Below, piece by piece: positions 25,424-33,581 of a stretch of DNA of 33,581 bases. Source of the stretch: Cyanobacteria bacterium CG_2015-22_32_23 (GTDB lineage: Bacteria > Cyanobacteriota > Cyanobacteriia > Cyanobacteriales > Cyanobacteriaceae); assembly GCA_009993045.1 (NCBI GenBank), contig JAACUG010000089.1:1-33581 (forward strand). The letters run 5' to 3'. A program made the translations under genes and the position numbers. Position 1 is the stretch's first letter. Each line of letters begins with the position of its first letter. The notes beneath the pieces were generated by a model. It worked only from the letters and a program-made list of their open reading frames with translations. It ran no database searches and had not been told where the DNA came from.

Positions 25424-27670
25424 TTAACGGGTTAAACCAGTAGATACTACGCCCGTAGGTAAATCTTTTTCTAAATACTCTCGTATTTCTTCCATTAATT
25501 CTCGTAAAATTCTGTCAGCGGTTGTGCCATCACCCCGTTGCATGGCATCTAAAACATTAGCGAATTTATTTTCTAAAACCTTACCGTGGGCTGGTGCAAT
25601 ACGATTCGCTCTTCTGACTCCAAAACGAAGCATAATTAAAACATGAACTAAATCAGGTAAATTGTCATATTCTTGTTTCCCATCTTCTGCTAACTTTTGC
25701 ATTGCCGAAAAATTGTTAGCATTAATGGCTTGTGTCATTGTAGTAACTAACATTTTCAAGCGACTTATTTGATCTTCGTGCATATAACTAACGCAATACT
25801 CAAGGGCAAAATCAAAATCATCTAAGTATTCTTGTATTTTGCCAAAATCTTTACAAGCTAACTTCTGTAACTCTTTAAGTTTTTCTTCTGCTACTTGAAT
25901 GCGATCACGAAATGGCGCTGTGCGATCGCCTTGTAACGATGTATTATTTTGACGAATTTGATTTGAAGCTCGGACAATTTCACCAGCCAACTCATTAACA
26001 TACTCAGCACCATATTCCGTTAAGCTACCATTATCATTAAGTTGAGCGATTAACTCTTCTACCTCTTGATTAATTTTTTCGTCTTGATTACCACGAGAAA
26101 AAGAGCCGCTTACACGAATAGCGTGATTATTTTTGAGACTGGCAGTCATGGTTAAAGCCGAATTTTCCTCATCTAACTCTATCATCACATCAACTTCCGT
26201 ACCTTTAGGGTAAGGTTTATCTAAAGCTAACCACATATCACCAATACGATCATCATAGTCATTATCGGTACGAACTTTTTTATCCAAATTAACCCCGATG
26301 GTTTCGACTTTATCAGGGCTAAAAAACTTAAAATGTATCAATTCTTGCCCATCACCAGAGGTTTTAAAAGTTTTGGTTTTTTGAATCGGTAAAACTTCAC
26401 CCAGTTTAATCAATTCAAAACGAGGATCATCTACTAATTTGATACAATAATCACGAGATACTGTGCCGACAATTTCCGTAATGCCAGAAGAAACAATACC
26501 AGCACCTTCTGCTACTGCATACATCGGGCGTGGATGAATGACGACTTTATCCTTACCAAAGGCTTTAATAACTTCTTGTTGCACTAAAGGAATTTGACTT
26601 GAACCACCCACTACCAATACAATATCGATCATATCTTCGGGATAATCAGAATATTTGATGGCATCTTGACAAATTTCGATCGAGCGCTTAACTAAAGGTA
26701 ATATCATGTCCTCAAATTCCGCTCTTGTAATGGTAACGTTAACGGTAATAGCCATACCAAACTCATCAATCAATGCTGACGGAAGATTAATTTTCGCTTC
26801 GGTTTTACTACTTAAGTCAATTTTTGCCCTTTCTGATTCCATTTTCAACTCAGCTTTAAATTTAACTTTCTGAAAATGGGGCATTTTATTAATTAAACTA
26901 TCAAGGCTATCTAAACCTTCTTCTTTTGCCACTCTTTGCTTCACTAAATCCATCAATTTTTCATCAATGTCATCCCCCCCTAACCACAAATCTCCTGCTT
27001 TTCCTGACTCAATAAAAGTGTTTCCTGAAGCAGTAATTAATGATGAGTCAAAAGTACCACCACCAAAATCATATACCAAGATAGTTTTAACATCATCACT
27101 ATCGGGCTTAAAACCGTAGGAAATAGCGGCAGCAGTAGGCTCAGGTAATAAAATTGGTTTTCCTAACCCAGCTCTAATAGAAGCGTTTTCCGTGGCATAG
27201 CGTTGTTTATCGTTAAAATAGGCAGGAATAGTAATCACCGCTTTAGTAATTTTACCCGTTTGCCCTTGATTTTCTTGATAAGTTTGGGCATTTTTTACCA
27301 CTTGCTTAAGAATTTCTGCACTTATATCTTCAGGTTGATATTCCTTTCCTCCAAGCCATACCGAAAGACTATTTTCCGTGCCTTGAGTGGATTGAGTGAT
27401 TTTATAACCAAAGTTTTTGAGTTGTTGTTGCACAACTTCATCACCGAAACCACGCCCCATTAAGCGTTTAATGGAGATAATAACATTTTCTGGATCTTGT
27501 TTTAACTGATTATAGGCTTCTTTACCTACTATCAAATTATTACCCGATAAACTTACTACTGATTTTACTAAAAATCCATGAATAGGATCATTAACCACTT
27601 GCGCGTCAACAAATTTAAAAGCCGCCACAGAATTAGTTGTGCCTAAATCGATTCCTACAATATTACCCAT
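25424..27670 (-). CDS. Hsp70/DnaK-like chaperone with divergent C-terminal half
   Basis: The N-terminal ATPase domain (about residues 1-390) is clearly Hsp70: phosphate-1 GIDLGTTNS (6-14), AVITIPAYFND (144-154), phosphate-2 VYDFGGGTFD (199-208) and the adenosine motif VLVVGGSSQIP (351-361). Beyond it the protein differs from DnaK. The linker normally reading DVLLLDV is replaced by VGTVSRDYCIKL (401-412), the beta substrate domain (about 420-525) is poorly conserved, and the helical lid region runs to residue 748, about 110 longer than DnaK, without the acidic DnaK tail. It heads a same-strand cluster with LysM, TPR, J-like and GrpE-like genes. I found no CIRCE element upstream. It is probably a dedicated chaperone, not the housekeeping DnaK; clients are unknown. 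Confidence 0.88.
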   Translation of the reverse strand: MGNIVGIDLGTTNSVAAFKFVDAQVVNDPIHGFLVKSVVSLSGNNLIVGKEAYNQLKQDPENVIISIKRLMGRGFGDEVVQQQLKNFGYKITQSTQGTENSLSVWLGGKEYQPEDISAEILKQVVKNAQTYQENQGQTGKITKAVITIPAYFNDKQRYATENASIRAGLGKPILLPEPTAAAISYGFKPDSDDVKTILVYDFGGGTFDSSLITASGNTFIESGKAGDLWLGGDDIDEKLMDLVKQRVAKEEGLDSLDSLINKMPHFQKVKFKAELKMESERAKIDLSSKTEAKINLPSALIDEFGMAITVNVTITRAEFEDMILPLVKRSIEICQDAIKYSDYPEDMIDIVLVVGGSSQIPLVQQEVIKAFGKDKVVIHPRPMYAVAEGAGIVSSGITEIVGTVSRDYCIKLVDDPRFELIKLGEVLPIQKTKTFKTSGDGQELIHFKFFSPDKVETIGVNLDKKVRTDNDYDDRIGDMWLALDKPYPKGTEVDVMIELDEENSALTMTASLKNNHAIRVSGSFSRGNQDEKINQEVEELIAQLNDNGSLTEYGAEYVNELAGEIVRASNQIRQNNTSLQGDRTAPFRDRIQVAEEKLKELQKLACKDFGKIQEYLDDFDFALEYCVSYMHEDQISRLKMLVTTMTQAINANNFSAMQKLAEDGKQEYDNLPDLVHVLIMLRFGVRRANRIAPAHGKVLENKFANVLDAMQRGDGTTADRILRELMEEIREYLEKDLPTGVVSTGLTR

Positions 27671-28046
27671 AATTTTTATTCAATTTTTAGTCTCTGTTTA
27701 TATATCAGTAACGAATCATCAATTTATGCGCTTTTTCTCGAAAAATTTTTTTTGGGTAATAACAATAAAGAAGAAAACCATTGAAACTAACTGAAAACTT
27801 CAAACACCGTTCTGTAGTATTTAACAATTATTTATGTATTGTATATAAGTGATGTTTAAAACGTTTTCTCCTCATAGTTTATATCAAAAGTATTATTTCT
27901 TAATCGTCAATCATAGTTGTAGAAACATTCATCATTTTTTAATCCCTTAACTAAATTTGAGAAATATTTGATGTATTAAGAAACATAAGTGACATATTTT
28001 AATAAAATTTTAAAAAAGTAGGGCGATGCACCGCCCACCAAAAAGA
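27671..28046. other. Upstream region of the hsp70 cluster and 3' flank of alaS
   Basis: No gene is seen. The right end (28012-28037) is the alaS terminator. The remaining AT-rich sequence must hold the promoter of the hsp70-like cluster, reading to the left, but no single -35/-10 pair stands out. A 10-bp palindrome AAAACGTTTT lies at 27858-27867, about 190 bp before the hsp70 start. There is no CIRCE (TTAGCACTC...GAGTGCTAA) repeat. Confidence 0.45.
28012..28037 (-). terminator. Rho-independent terminator of alaS
   Basis: Read on the minus strand just after the alaS stop, GGGCG and CGCCC (28021-28025 and 28032-28036) form a 5-bp GC stem with a six-base loop, followed by TACTTTTTT. Hairpin plus T-run and position support termination. 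The stem may come from the same palindromic repeat family as 25306-25322. Confidence 0.7.
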
Positions 28047-30755
28047 TTAAGATAAAGCCTCAATTAATTTATTTTTAGCAATAGTTAATGCCTCCTCAAC
28101 TTTACTTGCATCTTTACCTCCAGCTTGTGCCAGATTTGGTTTACCACCGCCACCACCACCGCAAATTTTAGCGATTTCGCCGATAAATTTACCAGCTTGA
28201 AGTTGTTTTTCTTTGTAAATTTTCTCACCAAAAGCCGCCACTAAACTAACTTTATTAGCTTCAGGAATCGAGGCTAAAATCACGGCAGAATTACCTAATT
28301 TTTGTTGTAATTTTTCTCCCACCGATTGCAAGGATTTAGCGTCTAATTCTCCCATATTCGCCACTAAAATTTTAAATTCCCCTACAGATTCAGCATTATT
28401 AATCAAACTTTCAGACTTTAATAAAGCTAACTCTTGTTTAACATTTTCTAGCTCTTTTTGAGTGGTTTTTAACTCACTTTGAAGGTTAGAAAATCGATCA
28501 AAAATTTCCTCTGGTTTAACTTTTAATTTGTCTGATAATTGCTTCACTACTTCATCTCTAACTTTCAGATACTCTAAGACAGAGGCACCTGCAACAGCTT
28601 CAATACGGCGGATACCAGAAGCAACCCCTGTTTCAGAGATGATTTTAAATAAGCCAATTTCGGCTGTATTATTAACATGAGTGCCTCCGCACAATTCCAT
28701 CGAAACCCCAGCAATATCGATAACTCGCACTTCTGAGCCGTATTTTTCCCCAAACATGGCGATCGCACCCTTAGCTTTAGCCTCATCAATGTCCATGATA
28801 CTAATATCTGTCGGATGAGATTCAGCAATCCAAATATTGATTAAATCTTCAACTTGTTGTAATTGTTGCTTAGTAATAGGTTGGGGAGAATTAAAGTCAA
28901 AACGTAACTTATCAAAGGATACCAAAGAACCAGCTTGAGAGATGTTTTCATCAACAATTTTTTTCAATGCTGATTGTAACAAGTGAGTTGCGGTATGATT
29001 AGCTTTAACTCGGTTACGACAGGCTTTATCGATAGTTGCGCGTAACTTTTGCCCAATTTGAATTGTACCTCTTTCCACTGTACCATAATGGACAAAAAAG
29101 CCCGACTCTTTCTGCACATCTTCGATGGATACTAACACATCTTCTCCTGCTAAATAGCCCTTATCGCCGATTTGTCCACCAGATTCTGCATAAAATGGGG
29201 TTTTATTTAAAATTAACTGCACTTTACTACCTGATTCGGCTTTTTGTACTGATTTACCGTCAATTAATAACCCCTCGATGTGACTTATTAACTGATATTC
29301 ACTATAGCCTAAAAATTCTGTGGGATGGATATGCTCTGCTAACTTGTCTATGCTACCCTGTACAGTTAAATCGATGGTTTCATGGGCAGATTGAGAGCGA
29401 GTGCGTTGAGCTTCCATTTCCGCTTCAAAAGCAGCCACATCAACCTTTAAACCCTCCTCCTCAGCGATTTCCTGAGTCAATTCGAGGGGAAAACCGAATG
29501 TATCATAAAGGGTAAAAGCATCCTCCCCCGAAATAGTAGCAAAGCCATCGGTAGCAAAGCCATCGGTAGCAAAGCCATCGGTAGCAAAGCCATCTTGGCT
29601 GTATTTTTGCTGATTTTTGAGCTTAATAATCACCTCATTTAACAGTTTTTCCCCCCTTTCAAGGGTTGCTAAAAATGCCGACTCCTCCCGTTGTAACTCG
29701 GTTTTAATTACCTTTTCTCTTTCTCTGGTATTGCTGTAAACCCCTTCTAATAGCCTGATAGCGGTTTCTGCTACCTCATTGATAAAATTGCCATCGATAC
29801 CGATTAAACGCCCGTGACGCACCACACGACGTATCAGACGGCGCAAAATATAACCCCTTCCTATATTCGATGCAGAAATACCATCAGCTATCATCTGAAC
29901 TACTGATCGCACATGATCACCGATAACCTTCAAAGATACCTTAGTATTTTCCGAAGCGGTTTTATAATCAATATTTGCCAACTTTCCTGCGGTGGCAATA
30001 ATAGGAAAAATCAAGTCAGTTTCGTAGTTATTAGGCACTTGTTGCAGAATTTGTGCCATTCTTTCTAACCCCATGCCTGTATCGATGTTTTTGTTTTGCA
30101 GAGGGGTTAAATTGCCTTGGGCATCTCGATTATACTGCATAAATACCAAGTTGTAAAACTCGATAAAGCGAGTATCGTCTTCCAAGTCGATGTCATCATC
30201 TCCCAATTCTGGCTTAAAATCATAGTATAACTCAGAACAAGGACCACAAGGACCAGTTACCCCCGATTTCCAGAAGTTATCTTCTTCTCCCATACGAATA
30301 ATCCGTTTTTCGGGGATTCCCACTTCATCACGCCAGATAGCAAAAGCCTCATCGTCTTCTCTAAAGACACTGACAACGATTCTTTCTGGAGGTAATTGAA
30401 ACACCTGAGTTGACAATTCCCACCCCCAGGCGATCGCCTCTGACTTAAAGTAATCACCGAAGCTAAAGTTACCCAACATCTCAAAAAAAGTATGATGCCT
30501 AGCGGTGCGCCCTACGTTTTCAATATCATTAGTACGGATGCACTTTTGAGAAGTGGTAGCACGAGGATAATCAGGGGTTTTCTGCCCTAAGAAAATAGGC
30601 TTAAAGGGGAGCATTCCTGCTATAGTTAACAAAACAGTGGGATCTTCTGGCACTAATGAAGCACTAGGGAGAATTTTGTGTTGTTTTTGGGCGAAAAAGT
30701 CTAAAAATTTCTCTCTGATTTCGTTTCCCGTGAGGGAGGGAGGGATATTAGTCAT
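28047..30755 (-). CDS. alaS: Alanine-tRNA ligase, with a DGFAT x4 insertion
   Basis: This class II synthetase charges tRNA-Ala and edits mischarged Ser/Gly. It has the normal size (902 residues). Seen are the N-terminal ITGLRSS-like segment, CIRTNDIENVGRTARHHTFF (72-91), the editing-site HTATH (about 587-591) and CGGTH (about 688-692) that bind zinc, and a C-terminal Gly-rich stretch, ICGGGGGGKPNLAQAGG. Odd is a tandem DGFAT x4 at about residues 388-407, between the helical tRNA-recognition part and FTLYDTFGFPLELTQEIA. The first 32 codons and 24 upstream bases are duplicated at 33349-33469, across the inserted restriction-modification module. A terminator follows at 28012-28037. The alaS promoter is now either within the module's left end or lost (see findings). 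Confidence 0.97.
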   Translation of the reverse strand: MTNIPPSLTGNEIREKFLDFFAQKQHKILPSASLVPEDPTVLLTIAGMLPFKPIFLGQKTPDYPRATTSQKCIRTNDIENVGRTARHHTFFEMLGNFSFGDYFKSEAIAWGWELSTQVFQLPPERIVVSVFREDDEAFAIWRDEVGIPEKRIIRMGEEDNFWKSGVTGPCGPCSELYYDFKPELGDDDIDLEDDTRFIEFYNLVFMQYNRDAQGNLTPLQNKNIDTGMGLERMAQILQQVPNNYETDLIFPIIATAGKLANIDYKTASENTKVSLKVIGDHVRSVVQMIADGISASNIGRGYILRRLIRRVVRHGRLIGIDGNFINEVAETAIRLLEGVYSNTREREKVIKTELQREESAFLATLERGEKLLNEVIIKLKNQQKYSQDGFATDGFATDGFATDGFATISGEDAFTLYDTFGFPLELTQEIAEEEGLKVDVAAFEAEMEAQRTRSQSAHETIDLTVQGSIDKLAEHIHPTEFLGYSEYQLISHIEGLLIDGKSVQKAESGSKVQLILNKTPFYAESGGQIGDKGYLAGEDVLVSIEDVQKESGFFVHYGTVERGTIQIGQKLRATIDKACRNRVKANHTATHLLQSALKKIVDENISQAGSLVSFDKLRFDFNSPQPITKQQLQQVEDLINIWIAESHPTDISIMDIDEAKAKGAIAMFGEKYGSEVRVIDIAGVSMELCGGTHVNNTAEIGLFKIISETGVASGIRRIEAVAGASVLEYLKVRDEVVKQLSDKLKVKPEEIFDRFSNLQSELKTTQKELENVKQELALLKSESLINNAESVGEFKILVANMGELDAKSLQSVGEKLQQKLGNSAVILASIPEANKVSLVAAFGEKIYKEKQLQAGKFIGEIAKICGGGGGGKPNLAQAGGKDASKVEEALTIAKNKLIEALS
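29536..29595. repeat. In-frame 15-bp tandem repeat x4 inside alaS
   Basis: The unit GTAGCAAAGCCATCG occurs four times head to tail (29536, 29551, 29566, 29581); the fourth copy differs in its last base. On the coding strand it encodes DGFAT repeated. The unit length is a multiple of three, so copy-number changes keep the frame. The near-identity suggests recent expansion by replication slippage. Confidence 0.95.
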
Positions 30756-30779
30756 AAAATATTATCAATAATGGTCTAT
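30659..30779. repeat. Left copy of 121-bp direct repeat flanking the R-M module
   Basis: This copy covers the first 32 codons of alaS and 24 bp upstream of its start. It matches 33349-33469 in the same orientation at 115 of 121 positions without gaps. The right edge (TGGTCTAT) marks where alaS upstream sequence stops and module sequence begins. Confidence 0.95.
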
Positions 30780-30860
30780 CTCCTATTATCCGATAATTTG
30801 TAGAGTCTAGCTAACAACTATCGTTCCTACAATACACTACTTCAATTGCAATCCATAAAA

Positions 30861-30890
30861 TGTGACTTATAGTCCGTTGACATATAATCA
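30861..30890 (+). promoter_or_regulatory. C-box-like operator and promoter of the C-R genes
   Basis: TGTGACTTATAGTC (30861-30874) followed by CCG and TTGACATATAATCA (30877-30890) strongly resembles the double operator of controller proteins such as C.Esp1396I, as I remember it. The right half contains a TTGACA (30877-30882) that could serve as the -35 box, with a weak -10 (GATGAT, 30901-30906). This layout fits activation at the left site and repression at the right. The C gene starts at 30937. Confidence 0.72.
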
Positions 30891-30936
30891 TCAAAATTAA
30901 GATGATAAAAGTTACAAGTGTTAACAATATTGATTT

Positions 30937-31176
30937 ATGTCAGGTACATTGCGAACTTATGTTGCTTTAACCATCAAAAAAATAAGAAAAAAAAGAAATC
31001 TCAGTCAAGAAGCCCTAGCATATAAAGCGAATCTCGATCGAACTTATATATCTGGGGTTGAGCGTGGAGTGAGAAATATTACCCTTGACTCTTTAGAACA
31101 AATTGTTATCGCACTGGATATGGATATTCCTACTTTTTTGAGTGAAGTTTATCATGAATTATATAATAAACCCTAA
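30937..31176 (+). CDS. Controller (C) protein of an R-M system, XRE-type HTH
   Basis: The product is 79 residues with one helix-turn-helix of the XRE/Cro-CI class: LSQEALAYKANLDRTYISGV (residues 22-41), then ERGVRNITLDSLEQIVIALD. Size and sequence are typical of C proteins that time restriction-modification gene expression by binding C-boxes as dimers. The C-box-like operator lies 47-76 bp upstream of the start. The 3' end overlaps the endonuclease gene by 23 bp, so translation is probably coupled and C and R are one transcript. This arrangement delays endonuclease until methylation is established. Confidence 0.9.
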   Translation: MSGTLRTYVALTIKKIRKKRNLSQEALAYKANLDRTYISGVERGVRNITLDSLEQIVIALDMDIPTFLSEVYHELYNKP

Positions 31177-31924
31177 CTGTGATACCAGTTTTATTTCGGG
31201 AAAAGGGAATCAAATTTCGATCGATAAAGCAATTTTTGAGTTAGCCTTAAAAGACTCTCATTTAGTGATTGAAAAAATAGTAAAAGATATACCCGTTGAC
31301 ATATTTGCTATTTTAGGAATGAGAAATTTATCATCATTTATTGGTGAATTATTTGCTATCAGTTTTGCTCAAAAATCAGGGGAATTATTCATTAAAAATC
31401 CTCATCAAGACGGTTATCCCGATTTTCTTTTAATGGATACTATTGGGAAAGAGATATTACAAAAATTATCATCTCAAGGAGAATTACGAGATAAATCGCC
31501 TTTTAGCCCTTTTATCAATGGTGGTATTGAGGTGAAAGCTACTTGTGGTTCTGTACCATCACCATCAGAATTAAGAAAAAAAGGATTAACCAAGCCCGAT
31601 ATGGGAGATACCCGAATTAAAATGTTAAAAGGTTACGATTGGAAAGCCCATCATCGCGAAACAAATAACCTGATTGGTTTACTTTGGGATTTTGATAATA
31701 AGATTCCTCTAATAATTGCCATTTTTTTCAGCAGTAATTTAACAGAAAATGACTGGGGTAAAATCGTTACACCCAAAGAAGGAGGAGGAAGAACAACAAG
31801 TGTTTCAATTATGCCTCGTGATGGAGTTCGCAAAATGTATAATAATTGGATTTTGGTGAGAGATGATCAACGTTATATTAATTTTTTGAATAAGTACAAT
31901 AAAAGTAGTTTAATTTCAAAATAG
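31154..31924 (+). CDS. Type II restriction endonuclease, PD-(D/E)XK type
   Basis: The identity rests on context (C gene upstream, methyltransferase downstream) and on a plausible nuclease motif: GYPDF with Asp90 and, 36 residues on, GGIEVKAT with Glu126 and Lys128. Further conserved-looking parts are MRNLSSFIGELFAISFAQ (56-73) and MGDTRIKMLKGYDWKAHHRE (near 150-170). I chose the ATG at 31154 over a GTG at 31142; both overlap the C gene. The product is 256 residues, a normal size. The target sequence cannot be read. It reminds me of the ScaI-like endonuclease family, but I could not test that. The gene is convergent with the methyltransferase gene and overlaps it by 9 bp. Confidence 0.78.
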   Translation: MNYIINPNCDTSFISGKGNQISIDKAIFELALKDSHLVIEKIVKDIPVDIFAILGMRNLSSFIGELFAISFAQKSGELFIKNPHQDGYPDFLLMDTIGKEILQKLSSQGELRDKSPFSPFINGGIEVKATCGSVPSPSELRKKGLTKPDMGDTRIKMLKGYDWKAHHRETNNLIGLLWDFDNKIPLIIAIFFSSNLTENDWGKIVTPKEGGGRTTSVSIMPRDGVRKMYNNWILVRDDQRYINFLNKYNKSSLISK

Positions 31925-33253
31925 ACATAATTGTTGAGATTTCTGTTGACTTTTAGTCACATTTTGATGATTGTCAGTGAGGATTGACATTATAAAAGAA
32001 AAAATTTGTTCTAATCCTAAAGGTGGCACACTTTCACCTATCAAGTCTCTAATCAATTTATCACTAATCTTTTTACCATCTGCTCGTTTCCACTGAAAAG
32101 GATATTTATCTATAGTGTGTAAAATCATTGCTTCATAAAGAGATAATACCCGATGTTGGCTAGGATGAATTTTATTGTCACTACAAGCATAAGAAAGATT
32201 CCGAGTTAAAGTGCTAGATGGTGCATCCCAACTCATTCTTTTATAGGCACTGGTATAACCTTTCATCAAACGATATTCTTTCCCCTCTCTTACCCAAGGG
32301 CGAGGGAGAAGGTGTCCGCATTTTTGACAATATATAGGTGTTTCGGTACTAGCTCGATTAATACCATGACTATTTTTTTTCGCTTGATGAGTTTGATTCC
32401 CAGTAAATCGACAATGAGGATTAATACATTGATTATCAAAAGCACTTTTTTCAGGTGGAGTATTGCTTACCCACAAATATTTATCTTCGTCTAATAAGGG
32501 AACATAATGATAAGGAATAGATTGACACTTAGCATTTTTAGGATTATCAGCACACAGAGGAGGCAAATGGGAAATAGCATCTCTAACGGTTATCCAAAGA
32601 GGAAGATTTAATCCATCTTTACTATAAGTTGGTGGAGGAAAAAGATCCCCTGAAAATTGAAGATAAGATTTTAATTTTTCATTTTTTGTAAATATTGAAA
32701 TCAATCTTTGACGACATTGAGGGACACCATAATCAGCAAATTCAATGTTACGAATACACCTTACAAAATTTTTTCCTAAAGACTCTTGAATAAAATCTAA
32801 AATATTAATTAATTCTCCATGTTTATAAGGATGAGGAATATAGGTTTTTTCCATTTCTGGTACATTTTCCATAATTAGCGTATCTGCACCACTAGCGACA
32901 AAAATTTCTACTGTAGGAATTATTAATAAATTTCTCTCATCTATTTCACTTTTTTTACCTTCCCGAATACCGTTTAAAAGTTTTCCTCTACCATTTTTTG
33001 ACATTCCTTGACATGGTGGGGTAGCAAATACTAAATCTAATTTTTCACCTGATAATTTTCTGATTATTTCTTTTAAGATCGTCTCTTTTTTCTGCCAAAT
33101 ATCACCAATAATAATTGATGTTTCCGGATAATTAAATTTAAACACTTGAGCACGATCGTTAATTTTTTCATTCGCTACTATTACATCAAAACCACTATTT
33201 TGAAGGGCTAAATCTCCTATTCCTCCACTACAAAACAAACTTATCGCTTTCAT
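31916..33253 (-). CDS. DNA (cytosine-5) methyltransferase of the R-M module
   Basis: Motifs of C5 methyltransferases appear in order in the 445 residues: I LFCSGGIGDLAL (6-17, AdoMet binding), IV TPPCQGMS (78-85, catalytic Cys81), VI MENVPEM (128-134), VIII PQCRQRLISIF (178-188) and X GESVPPLG (406-413). The target-recognition region between VIII and IX contains a probable zinc site with Cys276, Cys281, Cys309 and Cys312 (CINPHC and CQKCGH), which is not standard for small bacterial C5 enzymes. It protects the host against the neighbouring nuclease. A C-box-like site lies 28-37 bp upstream of the start (33281-33290). The 3' end overlaps the endonuclease gene by 9 bp. Confidence 0.92.
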   Translation of the reverse strand: MKAISLFCSGGIGDLALQNSGFDVIVANEKINDRAQVFKFNYPETSIIIGDIWQKKETILKEIIRKLSGEKLDLVFATPPCQGMSKNGRGKLLNGIREGKKSEIDERNLLIIPTVEIFVASGADTLIMENVPEMEKTYIPHPYKHGELINILDFIQESLGKNFVRCIRNIEFADYGVPQCRQRLISIFTKNEKLKSYLQFSGDLFPPPTYSKDGLNLPLWITVRDAISHLPPLCADNPKNAKCQSIPYHYVPLLDEDKYLWVSNTPPEKSAFDNQCINPHCRFTGNQTHQAKKNSHGINRASTETPIYCQKCGHLLPRPWVREGKEYRLMKGYTSAYKRMSWDAPSSTLTRNLSYACSDNKIHPSQHRVLSLYEAMILHTIDKYPFQWKRADGKKISDKLIRDLIGESVPPLGLEQIFSFIMSILTDNHQNVTKSQQKSQQLCLF

Positions 33254-33348
33254 TTTCTACTGACATCACTTTTATTTGTTGACTATAATCTACAATAATT
33301 TTTTCAAAAATGCAAATGTAACTAAAATGACCGATAAACTTTTTTTTC
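33254..33348. other. Upstream region of the methyltransferase gene
   Basis: This 95-bp gap lies between the methyltransferase start and the right direct repeat. Read on the minus strand, TTGCAT (33309-33314) and TAGATT (33286-33291) are separated by 17 bases and could be -35 and -10 boxes. The -10 overlaps the C-box-like element below, so C-protein binding would block it. Choice of promoter is inference. Confidence 0.4.
33278..33294 (-). promoter_or_regulatory. Single C-box-like operator of the methyltransferase gene
   Basis: On the plus strand TTGACTATAATC (33279-33290) matches the right half of the operator before the C gene (TTGACATATAATC) with one base missing, and the minus-strand reading GATTATAGTCAACA resembles the operator repeat of C.Esp1396I-type systems. 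A single site at a methyltransferase promoter usually means repression by the C protein. Confidence 0.6.
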
Positions 33349-33445
33349 AAGCACTAGGGAGGATTTTGTGCTGTTTTTGCACGAAAAAGTTTAAAAATTT
33401 CTCTCTGATTTCGTTTCCCGTGAGGGGGGGAGGGATATTAGTCAT
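33347..33445 (-). pseudogene. alaS 5' remnant (32 codons)
   Basis: Within the right direct repeat, the alaS start codon (33445-33443) and the next 31 codons are kept in frame, then TGA (33349-33347) ends the frame one base into the non-homologous flank. Compared with intact alaS it has S7P, D19N and A22V plus two silent changes. It cannot make a synthetase. It lies about 94 bp upstream of the methyltransferase start on the same strand, so it would act as a short leader frame. Confidence 0.85.
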
Positions 33446-33469
33446 AAAATATTATCAATAATGGTCTAT
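33349..33469. repeat. Right copy of 121-bp direct repeat flanking the R-M module
   Basis: This is 95% identical to 30659-30779 in the same orientation, with an offset of exactly 2690 bp and no gaps. It marks the right boundary of the inserted module, which therefore spans about 30780-33348. Confidence 0.95.
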
Positions 33470-33581
33470 TGATAAATATAGGTTAGAAAAACTCTAAATG
33501 TTTTCCCTCTATCTTTCTTAATTCCTCTAAACTACCCTGTTGTTTAAGCTAAGACGCACTTGTATAGTATATAATTACAAT
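33470..33581. other. Probable original alaS upstream region (window end)
   Basis: No gene is visible. Sequence beyond the right repeat should be the ancestral upstream DNA of alaS. Read on the minus strand it contains TATACTAT near 33561-33570, a possible -10 box, but the -35 lies outside or is unclear. Bases 33533-33552 resemble the left end of the window (17 of 20). Confidence 0.4.

Follow-up and report, generated by a model that had tools for sequence, protein, structure and literature searches.

Restriction-modification (R-M) units with a long, variable target duplication have been described (Nobusato 2000 and Furuta 2010, as cited in PMC3031569 and PMC3874152), and the available parts of the two citing articles also link R-M movement to genome rearrangements. 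For Helicobacter pylori ELS37, the accessible portion of PMC4615327 gives a 1577-bp duplication around an insertion, for which one homologous and one non-homologous junction were inferred. A class of Type II R-M systems governed by a controller (C) protein carries C-boxes of the form GACTtatAGTC, according to the excerpt available from PMC3115060. These systems are compared here with RM1, the label for a C/R/M module of ~2.46 kb (30861-33324) that lies beside alaS, the alanine--tRNA ligase gene, in a 33,581-nucleotide stretch of contig JAACUG010000089.1 from Cyanobacteria bacterium CG_2015-22_32_23. This whole stretch is called the window, and its genome, a 142-contig assembly, G000.

It is well supported that RM1 is a mobile R-M module joined to the chromosome with partial duplication of an essential gene. 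Since RM1 at alaS and its relatives at groEL sit alike beside partial copies of these genes, R-M genes are suggested to be capable of transposase-free movement in which part of the gene at the landing site is duplicated.

The alaS repeat and the genes between its copies

The locus is composed of the following features.

28047..30755, minus strand: alaS, alanine--tRNA ligase, intact open reading frame (ORF) of 902 aa (TIGR00344, E=0, 1059.7 bits against a cut-off of 457.05)
30659..30779, minus strand: repeat copy 1, alaS codons 1-32 (97 nt) and 24 upstream nt, within the intact gene
30864..30889, plus strand: pair of C-protein operators GACTTATAGTC and GACATATAATC, of the C-box form GACTtatAGTC, at the outer module edge (30861)
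30937..31176, plus strand: C, controller protein of 79 aa, HTH_3 (PF01381, 3.3e-13; PADLOC Control_protein, 7.1e-20)
31154..31924, plus strand: R, restriction endonuclease of 256 aa (PADLOC REase_II, 5.9e-67; GYPD...ExK motif)
31916..33253, minus strand: M, C5-cytosine DNA methyltransferase of 445 aa (PF00145, 3.4e-29)
33349..33469, minus strand: repeat copy 2, a detached alaS 5' fragment of 32 codons and 24 upstream bases

An earlier reading of this DNA by a model, here the sequence-only reading, had described a direct repeat on both sides of the R-M genes, and the repeat is as described: the two copies, 2690 bp apart, are identical at 115 of 121 positions without a gap, and the essential gene alaS is left intact beside the module and the duplicated piece of itself. 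All six substitutions fall in the alaS-coding part (codons 7, 19, 22 twice, 25 and 28), the longest identical run is 42 nt, and the frame of copy 2 is open for 32 codons and then meets a stop. The repeat is not due to chance, because the pair has a BLAST E-value of 5.9e-53 and a flanking direct repeat at E<=1e-6 is found in 0 of 143 random 2.4-kb pseudo-modules, which are overlapping and therefore not independent draws from 13 stretches, the real module regions and the groEL genomes being excluded. A 15-bp tandem array and pairs of 29 nt at 72% come next in size among the repeat families shown in 27500-33581.

The same reading took the insertion to be recent, which is not borne out: copies 1 and 2 share 95.0% identity, a difference of 5%, and copy 2 is nearly as close, at 94.2%, to the alaS of G004, another species. 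In the tree, copy 2 groups with copy 1 and the G004 alaS (0.979).

A false joining of two alaS-like contigs around the R-M genes during assembly would agree with the fragmentation of the genome into 142 contigs and with the end of this contig 112 bp past copy 2, in an insertion sequence (IS). However, the copies differ at six bases within one contig, and the junction between M and the alaS fragment recurs in an independent assembly, that of Geminocystis sp. GBBB08 (G003); an artefact of this kind is highly improbable.

Between the repeat copies lie, as had been read, the C, R and M genes, and all three are intact. The C gene with its operators, R with its nuclease motif and M with its methyltransferase domain mark RM1 as a predicted Type II R-M system with a controller. 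The operator on the C side is present in 13 of 13 lined-up modules, with a few bases changed in some, and the GYPD and ExK parts of the R motif are invariant in all 12 aligned sequences, among them that of the window; the broken R of G003 is not in this set. The overlap of C and R, the convergence of M on R from the opposite strand, the paired C-boxes, the PD-(D/E)XK-like motif of R and the C5 type of the methyltransferase are all features of likeness to the C-controlled systems covered by the available part of PMC3115060, while RM1 differs from them in that no related solved structure was found by sequence for its R, which has no Pfam match either.

A perfect C-box-like palindrome, GACTTTTAGTC, is also seen at 31948-31958, in the 3' end of M, at its point of convergence with R. 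A promoter scan gave 14 sites against 13.3 in shuffles, i.e. no excess, and found no terminators. Within alaS, a 15-bp unit is tandemly repeated at 29536-29594 and adds in-frame residues to the protein as ATDGF repeats; the stretch holding this unit is missing from the alaS of G001, G002 and G004.

Distribution and transfer of RM1

Of 15 genomes of the family, two have RM1, with 96-100% identity, and no other match in the family exceeds 37%; in the order it is found in 11 of 388 genomes at E<=1e-60. The synonymous divergence (dS) between G000 and G003 is 0.144 for M and 0.193 for C, against 0.468 for alaS, 0.69 for pyrF, 0.704 for purH and 0.847 for pflB; because the module stands at 0.14-0.19 and the four chromosomal genes at 0.47-0.85, RM1 moved between the two lineages after their split. 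No vehicle was found for it, as searches of plasmid and phage collections at E<=1e-40 returned no close relative of M, the matches being two plasmid records (44.5% and 36.4%) and one phage record (47.8%).

In G003, where R is broken, RM1 and alaS share a contig but are separated by ~15 kb, and RM1 has an alaS fragment of its own beside M. This fragment starts at codon 38 and runs on, at its outer side, through native upstream sequence to about -52. The G003 module is in addition flanked by 257-bp repeats, which are a fragment of another, ApaLI-like R-M. The M-side alaS fragments of G000 and G003 each follow the allele of their own lineage (0.979 and 0.783 in the tree), which could reflect gene conversion, independent joining or homology-anchored joining. 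An internal piece of alaS (83%) is also present in G003 several kb past the alaS 3' end, in the same orientation and among toxin-antitoxin-like genes (L033, 9607-9798).

Module edges and outer flanks

The sequences between and outside the repeat copies and the module are these.

30780..30801, minus strand: continuation of the native sequence upstream of alaS past the repeat (-25 to -46), 22 bases identical to the G003 alaS upstream sequence
30802..30860, no strand: 59-nt filler, without a match outside G000 among the loci compared
33254..33324, no strand: upstream region of M, common with G003 (98.6% over 71 nt), forming the M-side module edge
33325..33348, no strand: 24-nt filler from module to alaS fragment, different from that of G003
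33470..33544, minus strand: 3' end of an ABC-transporter gene, which reads KQQGSLEELRKIEGKHLEFF and then a stop, and matches an ABC_tran ORF of G038 at its end (87% over 71 nt)
33545..33581, no strand: 37-bp end of an IS630-type element at the contig break; whole elements with transposase ORFs are found in L080 and L081

The extent of 121 bp given for the repeat holds for the two copies, and the native homology on the alaS side runs 22 bases further, to 30801. The bases at which the module ends are identical in G000 and G003 at either edge, and in both genomes an alaS 5' fragment comes after M; the filler differs, and the breakpoint in alaS is at codon 32 in G000 and at codon 38 in G003. Across the 13 modules, from cyanobacteria and proteobacteria, the C-side homology that can be recognised across genera starts at the paired C-box operator, five congeneric modules sharing more C-side sequence among themselves. 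In the distant relatives this edge may reflect functional conservation only. Three close groEL-linked modules, located at different groEL positions, have their edge 0-12 bases from the groEL fragment.

In G003, the C side of the module matches the sequence upstream of alaS at 17/18 positions, and this match was once read as an alaS remnant. This reading was dropped because the last bases, TTTGTGACTTATAG, recur in the modules of other genera and the first bases are flanking DNA.

The sequence-only reading saw no transposase or integrase. Between the copies this is correct, as C, R and M are the only genes there; it does not hold for the contig end, which lies in an element that we take to be an IS630, and the rest of the window was not scanned for transposases. 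The second ORF of the IS630-type transposon in L081 is a DDE_3 protein (PF13358, 2.2e-40). The locus is not arranged as a composite transposon, since an IS end is present on one side only, 75 bp outside copy 2, and the other side is alaS.

Outer flanks were compared in six relatives, four of the same genus (G001-G004) and two of the sister genus (G008 and G011). An empty site with 33470 onward joined directly to the alaS start had been predicted and was not found, the DNA upstream of alaS being different in all six. Positions 33470-33581 have no match upstream of alaS in any of them, and this lack of homology, which the sequence-only reading had itself named as refuting its proposal, is what the locus presents. 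The two outer flanks of the window locus are accordingly not collinear with an empty site among the six. Precise excision through recombination of the repeats, also proposed, would not restore the native site here, because the outer flank of copy 2 is already different.

The alaS start in related genomes

Relatives without RM1 carry one coding copy of the alaS start, as had been predicted for an empty site (G001, G004, G008 and G011). The exception is G002, in which an ApaLI-like R-M and toxin-antitoxin genes are placed between the intact alaS and an alaS 5' copy 4 kb off, at 80%, and alaS fragments are found beside two unrelated R-M systems in this way. The G002 interval (L035, 5459-9471) holds an HNH-type protein, the ApaLI-like R-M and HicAB, and the 5' copy is decayed.

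The DNA joined upstream of alaS varies from genome to genome: BrnT in G003 and G004, with a near-identical stretch in G011, a HicA-like ORF in G001 (below the Pfam cut-off when tested in G002), an HNH-type protein in G002 and RM1 in G000. G004, whose alaS is most like that of the window, is without RM1, and a toxin-antitoxin region of the BrnT type, with an ApaLI-like R-M, is joined to its single copy. The alaS gene was found in 13 genomes of the family, and three of these (G000, G002, G003) carry detached alaS 5' coding pieces, a count that omits two matches at E 0.13 and 0.47; detached upstream-only pieces occur also in G001 and as further copies in G003. Of five detached upstream copies, four share an end at -58 and the fifth, from G003, stops six bases earlier (positions of the G004 reference sequence).

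The alaS start of G000 looks like a mosaic of G003-like and G004-like sites. Upstream in copy 1, the six sites from -41 to -35 are of the G003 type and the eight from -13 to +27 of the G004 type, and the 44 informative sites fall into 12 runs where 23 are expected (P=0.00085, which is overstated, as neighbouring sites may be one event). The run pattern points to probable recombination at the alaS start.

Two further alaS pieces, codons 88-114 and 214-252, follow an HlyD-like gene on another contig of the same genome (L038, G000:C21, 1812-1998 and 2311-2609). Beyond them come IS-like remnants and then a C-terminal remnant of the methyltransferase of the ApaLI-like system. A search with HlyD for a link between C21 and the ABC 3' end beside copy 2 gave just a 137-bp remnant in G004.

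The scattered pieces lend real support to another explanation, that alaS fragments were already present in an old island of toxin-antitoxin and R-M genes on the upstream side of alaS and that recombination, with IS participation, put RM1 beside one of them, so that the repeat would not be a footprint of arrival. In G001, G002 and G003, alaS upstream or 5' pieces are unattached to RM1, those of C21 stand beside a remnant of the ApaLI-like M, copy 2 is followed by the ABC 3' end and the IS630-type end, and RM1 of G003 is flanked also by repeats of the other R-M. Yet the alaS 5' fragment abuts RM1 on the same side in both carrier genomes, and the parallels at groEL and at the Planktothrix gene end need no old alaS island, and this explanation is judged unlikely.

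The same architecture at groEL and in Planktothrix

Thirteen RM1-family modules were searched for direct repeats at E<=1e-6 within 2 kb on either side, a set that is without four diverged or incomplete relatives (L105, L112, L113 and L114) and the duplicate record L099. Six of them are flanked on both sides. In five of these six a stretch of a neighbouring gene makes up the repeat: alaS in G000, groEL in three Methylococcales-type genomes (G388, G389 and G390), and in Planktothrix (G238) a 417-aa ORF, of which the 3' end is repeated. Four of these five modules have an unbroken copy of that gene on one side. The fifth is the module of G390, where the repeat found within 2 kb consists of two truncated groEL copies and the complete groEL is more distant, past another R-M. 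The gene-fragment repeats diverge by 4-20%, and none is near-identical. The seven modules without repeats belong to five congeneric cyanobacteria, Corticimicrobacter (where 0.4 kb of C-side flank is all that was present) and a betaproteobacterium.

The gene order in the three groEL genomes is intact groEL, cargo including an RM1 relative, and 5'-truncated groEL. The cargo varies, as G390 has another R-M besides its RM1 relative, and G389 a CD-NTase and a 2TM effector. A similar CD-NTase and effector are found in G486, with a different C5 methyltransferase and a neighbouring ORF, between a groEL 3' part and a 5'-truncated groEL; the ORF, without a Pfam or PADLOC match, is taken for a candidate endonuclease. 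The G486-type methyltransferase and ORF also precede the groEL start in G471. Both G486 and G471 are short contigs ending inside groEL, with the whole gene out of view.

The loci of G389 (L103, 2660-9879) and G486 (L172) both read groEL, CD-NTase with a SLATT_4-type effector, methyltransferase with a partner ORF, and truncated groEL, the CBASS-like pair being alike and the methyltransferase system different. In G390 (L104, 1836-4923), a second, unrelated R-M is followed by a truncated groEL that starts at base 569, against 567 for the one beside the RM1 relative.

In the tree, the two groEL copies of G389 do not pair as sisters. The terminator regions downstream of them differ, and both regions occur behind groEL in other genomes as well, so that one of the copies appears to have entered together with the cargo. 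The copies of G390 are likewise not sisters.

For Planktothrix, the empty-site comparison shows one copy of the gene end in G193, with ~1.1 kb more between the flanks, and other genomes that match both flanks have them on separate contigs. In G134, also Planktothrix, ~100 bp of a gene 3' end is duplicated at 90% around an unrelated 217-aa ORF (L136, 2669-3870), and this gene end is the one flanking the R-M in G238. Where the whole gene is in view, the loci share a general pattern of a whole neighbour, a partial copy beyond the module and no recombinase seen in the units.

Joining of RM1 to the chromosome

The Kobayashi group has reportedly proposed that R-M units insert with long target duplication. 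Applied to the window, a simple insertion of this kind would have duplicated ~160 bp (codon 38 to -46, from G003 and the window together), with copy 2 later trimmed and its flank replaced. It accounts for the architecture and the repeat length, and for the G003 M-side fragment that continues into native upstream sequence; the copy-specific changes fit a single source in the G000/G004 clade (0.979), and the 5% divergence of the copies fits the age of RM1 in the lineage (dS of M of 0.144 over both branches). Simple target duplication expects initially identical copies and a native outer flank, whereas the outer flank of the window is not native, the G389 copies have different downstream regions, the copies in G389 and G390 are not sisters and no gene-fragment repeat is near-identical. 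This route is a possible one, of somewhat lower probability than the next.

The explanation favoured, tentatively, is a one-sided homologous joining of RM1 at the alaS 5' end, the flank of copy 2 being replaced later. The C-controlled module would have been acquired from another Geminocystis lineage by horizontal transfer, and its attachment to the chromosome at the alaS 5' end would have taken place without a transposase. One side would have been anchored by homology in the alaS start and its upstream region, and on the M side an end-to-end junction with filler would have formed within alaS codons 32-38 of a second chromosome copy. Such a joining would leave alaS whole with a partial alaS copy beyond the module, and a later rearrangement may have swapped the outer flank of copy 2 for ABC-transporter DNA and the IS element. 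One-sided joining is preferred because of the transfer of RM1, the G003-type stretch upstream in copy 1 and the junction filler. It allows different alleles from the start, and G389 speaks for it because its groEL copies are not sisters and have different terminator regions.

Several observations weigh against this preference. The groEL copies of G388 are sisters (0.889), as predicted by simple target duplication, for which this genome therefore speaks. Two of the six differences between the alaS copies are derived states of copy 1; the other four, of which one is shared with G004, are derived states of copy 2. All six would fit a simple within-lineage duplication equally well. In G003, a metagenome-assembled genome (MAG) contig of 2.4-fold k-mer coverage, the contact of the C side with the alaS upstream sequence is weak, the 17/18 match overlapping the conserved operator and flanking DNA. 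No donor and no empty parent of the G000 strain was seen, and at the window locus both routes fit.

The insertion with target duplication put forward by the sequence-only reading was right in kind, and its class survives because the G003 fragment runs into native upstream sequence and other genomes show the same architecture; the predicted empty-site join is the part that failed. RM1 resembles the known R-M units with long target duplication, as presented in the available parts of PMC3031569 and PMC3874152, in being a Type II unit without a transposase between direct repeats of the target in the order of 100 bp. It differs from them in that its outer flank is not collinear with an empty site, its copies are 5% apart, the targeted sequence belongs to the beginning of an essential gene, which remains intact, alaS is a site where different R-Ms recur, and one related groEL case has two allelic copies. 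Because the flanks are not collinear, the window locus is not a strict member of this class, though it works like one. With H. pylori ELS37, as far as the accessible portion of PMC4615327 describes it, where the duplication is gene-conversion-like, it shares a long duplication sandwiching the insert, read as homologous at one end and non-homologous at the other; there, however, the insert is ~50 kb (integrative and conjugative elements, ICEs) and an R gene makes up part of the duplicated segment, whereas here a 2.5-kb R-M lies beside alaS. Among the literature matches listed, in the parts available, neither alaS nor groEL was found described as a recurrent site of R-M duplication.

Implications

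A wider proposal, doubtful as it stands, is that essential genes, alaS and groEL among them, are integrase-free docking sites for defence modules, where the partial copy would serve as a travelling homology arm and unrelated R-M, CBASS-like and toxin-antitoxin cassettes would be swapped across species at one and the same gene, one whole gene always being left, as the loss would otherwise be lethal.

R-M systems are often mobile, frequently without a visible vehicle. The footprint described here, an R-M beside a partial copy of a neighbour that is kept whole, is seen in cyanobacteria and in Methylococcales-type bacteria, with different R-M families at the same gene. Allelic as opposed to identical copies, together with junction filler, make the mechanism of joining testable, and truncated copies of essential genes offer a way to find small defence islands.

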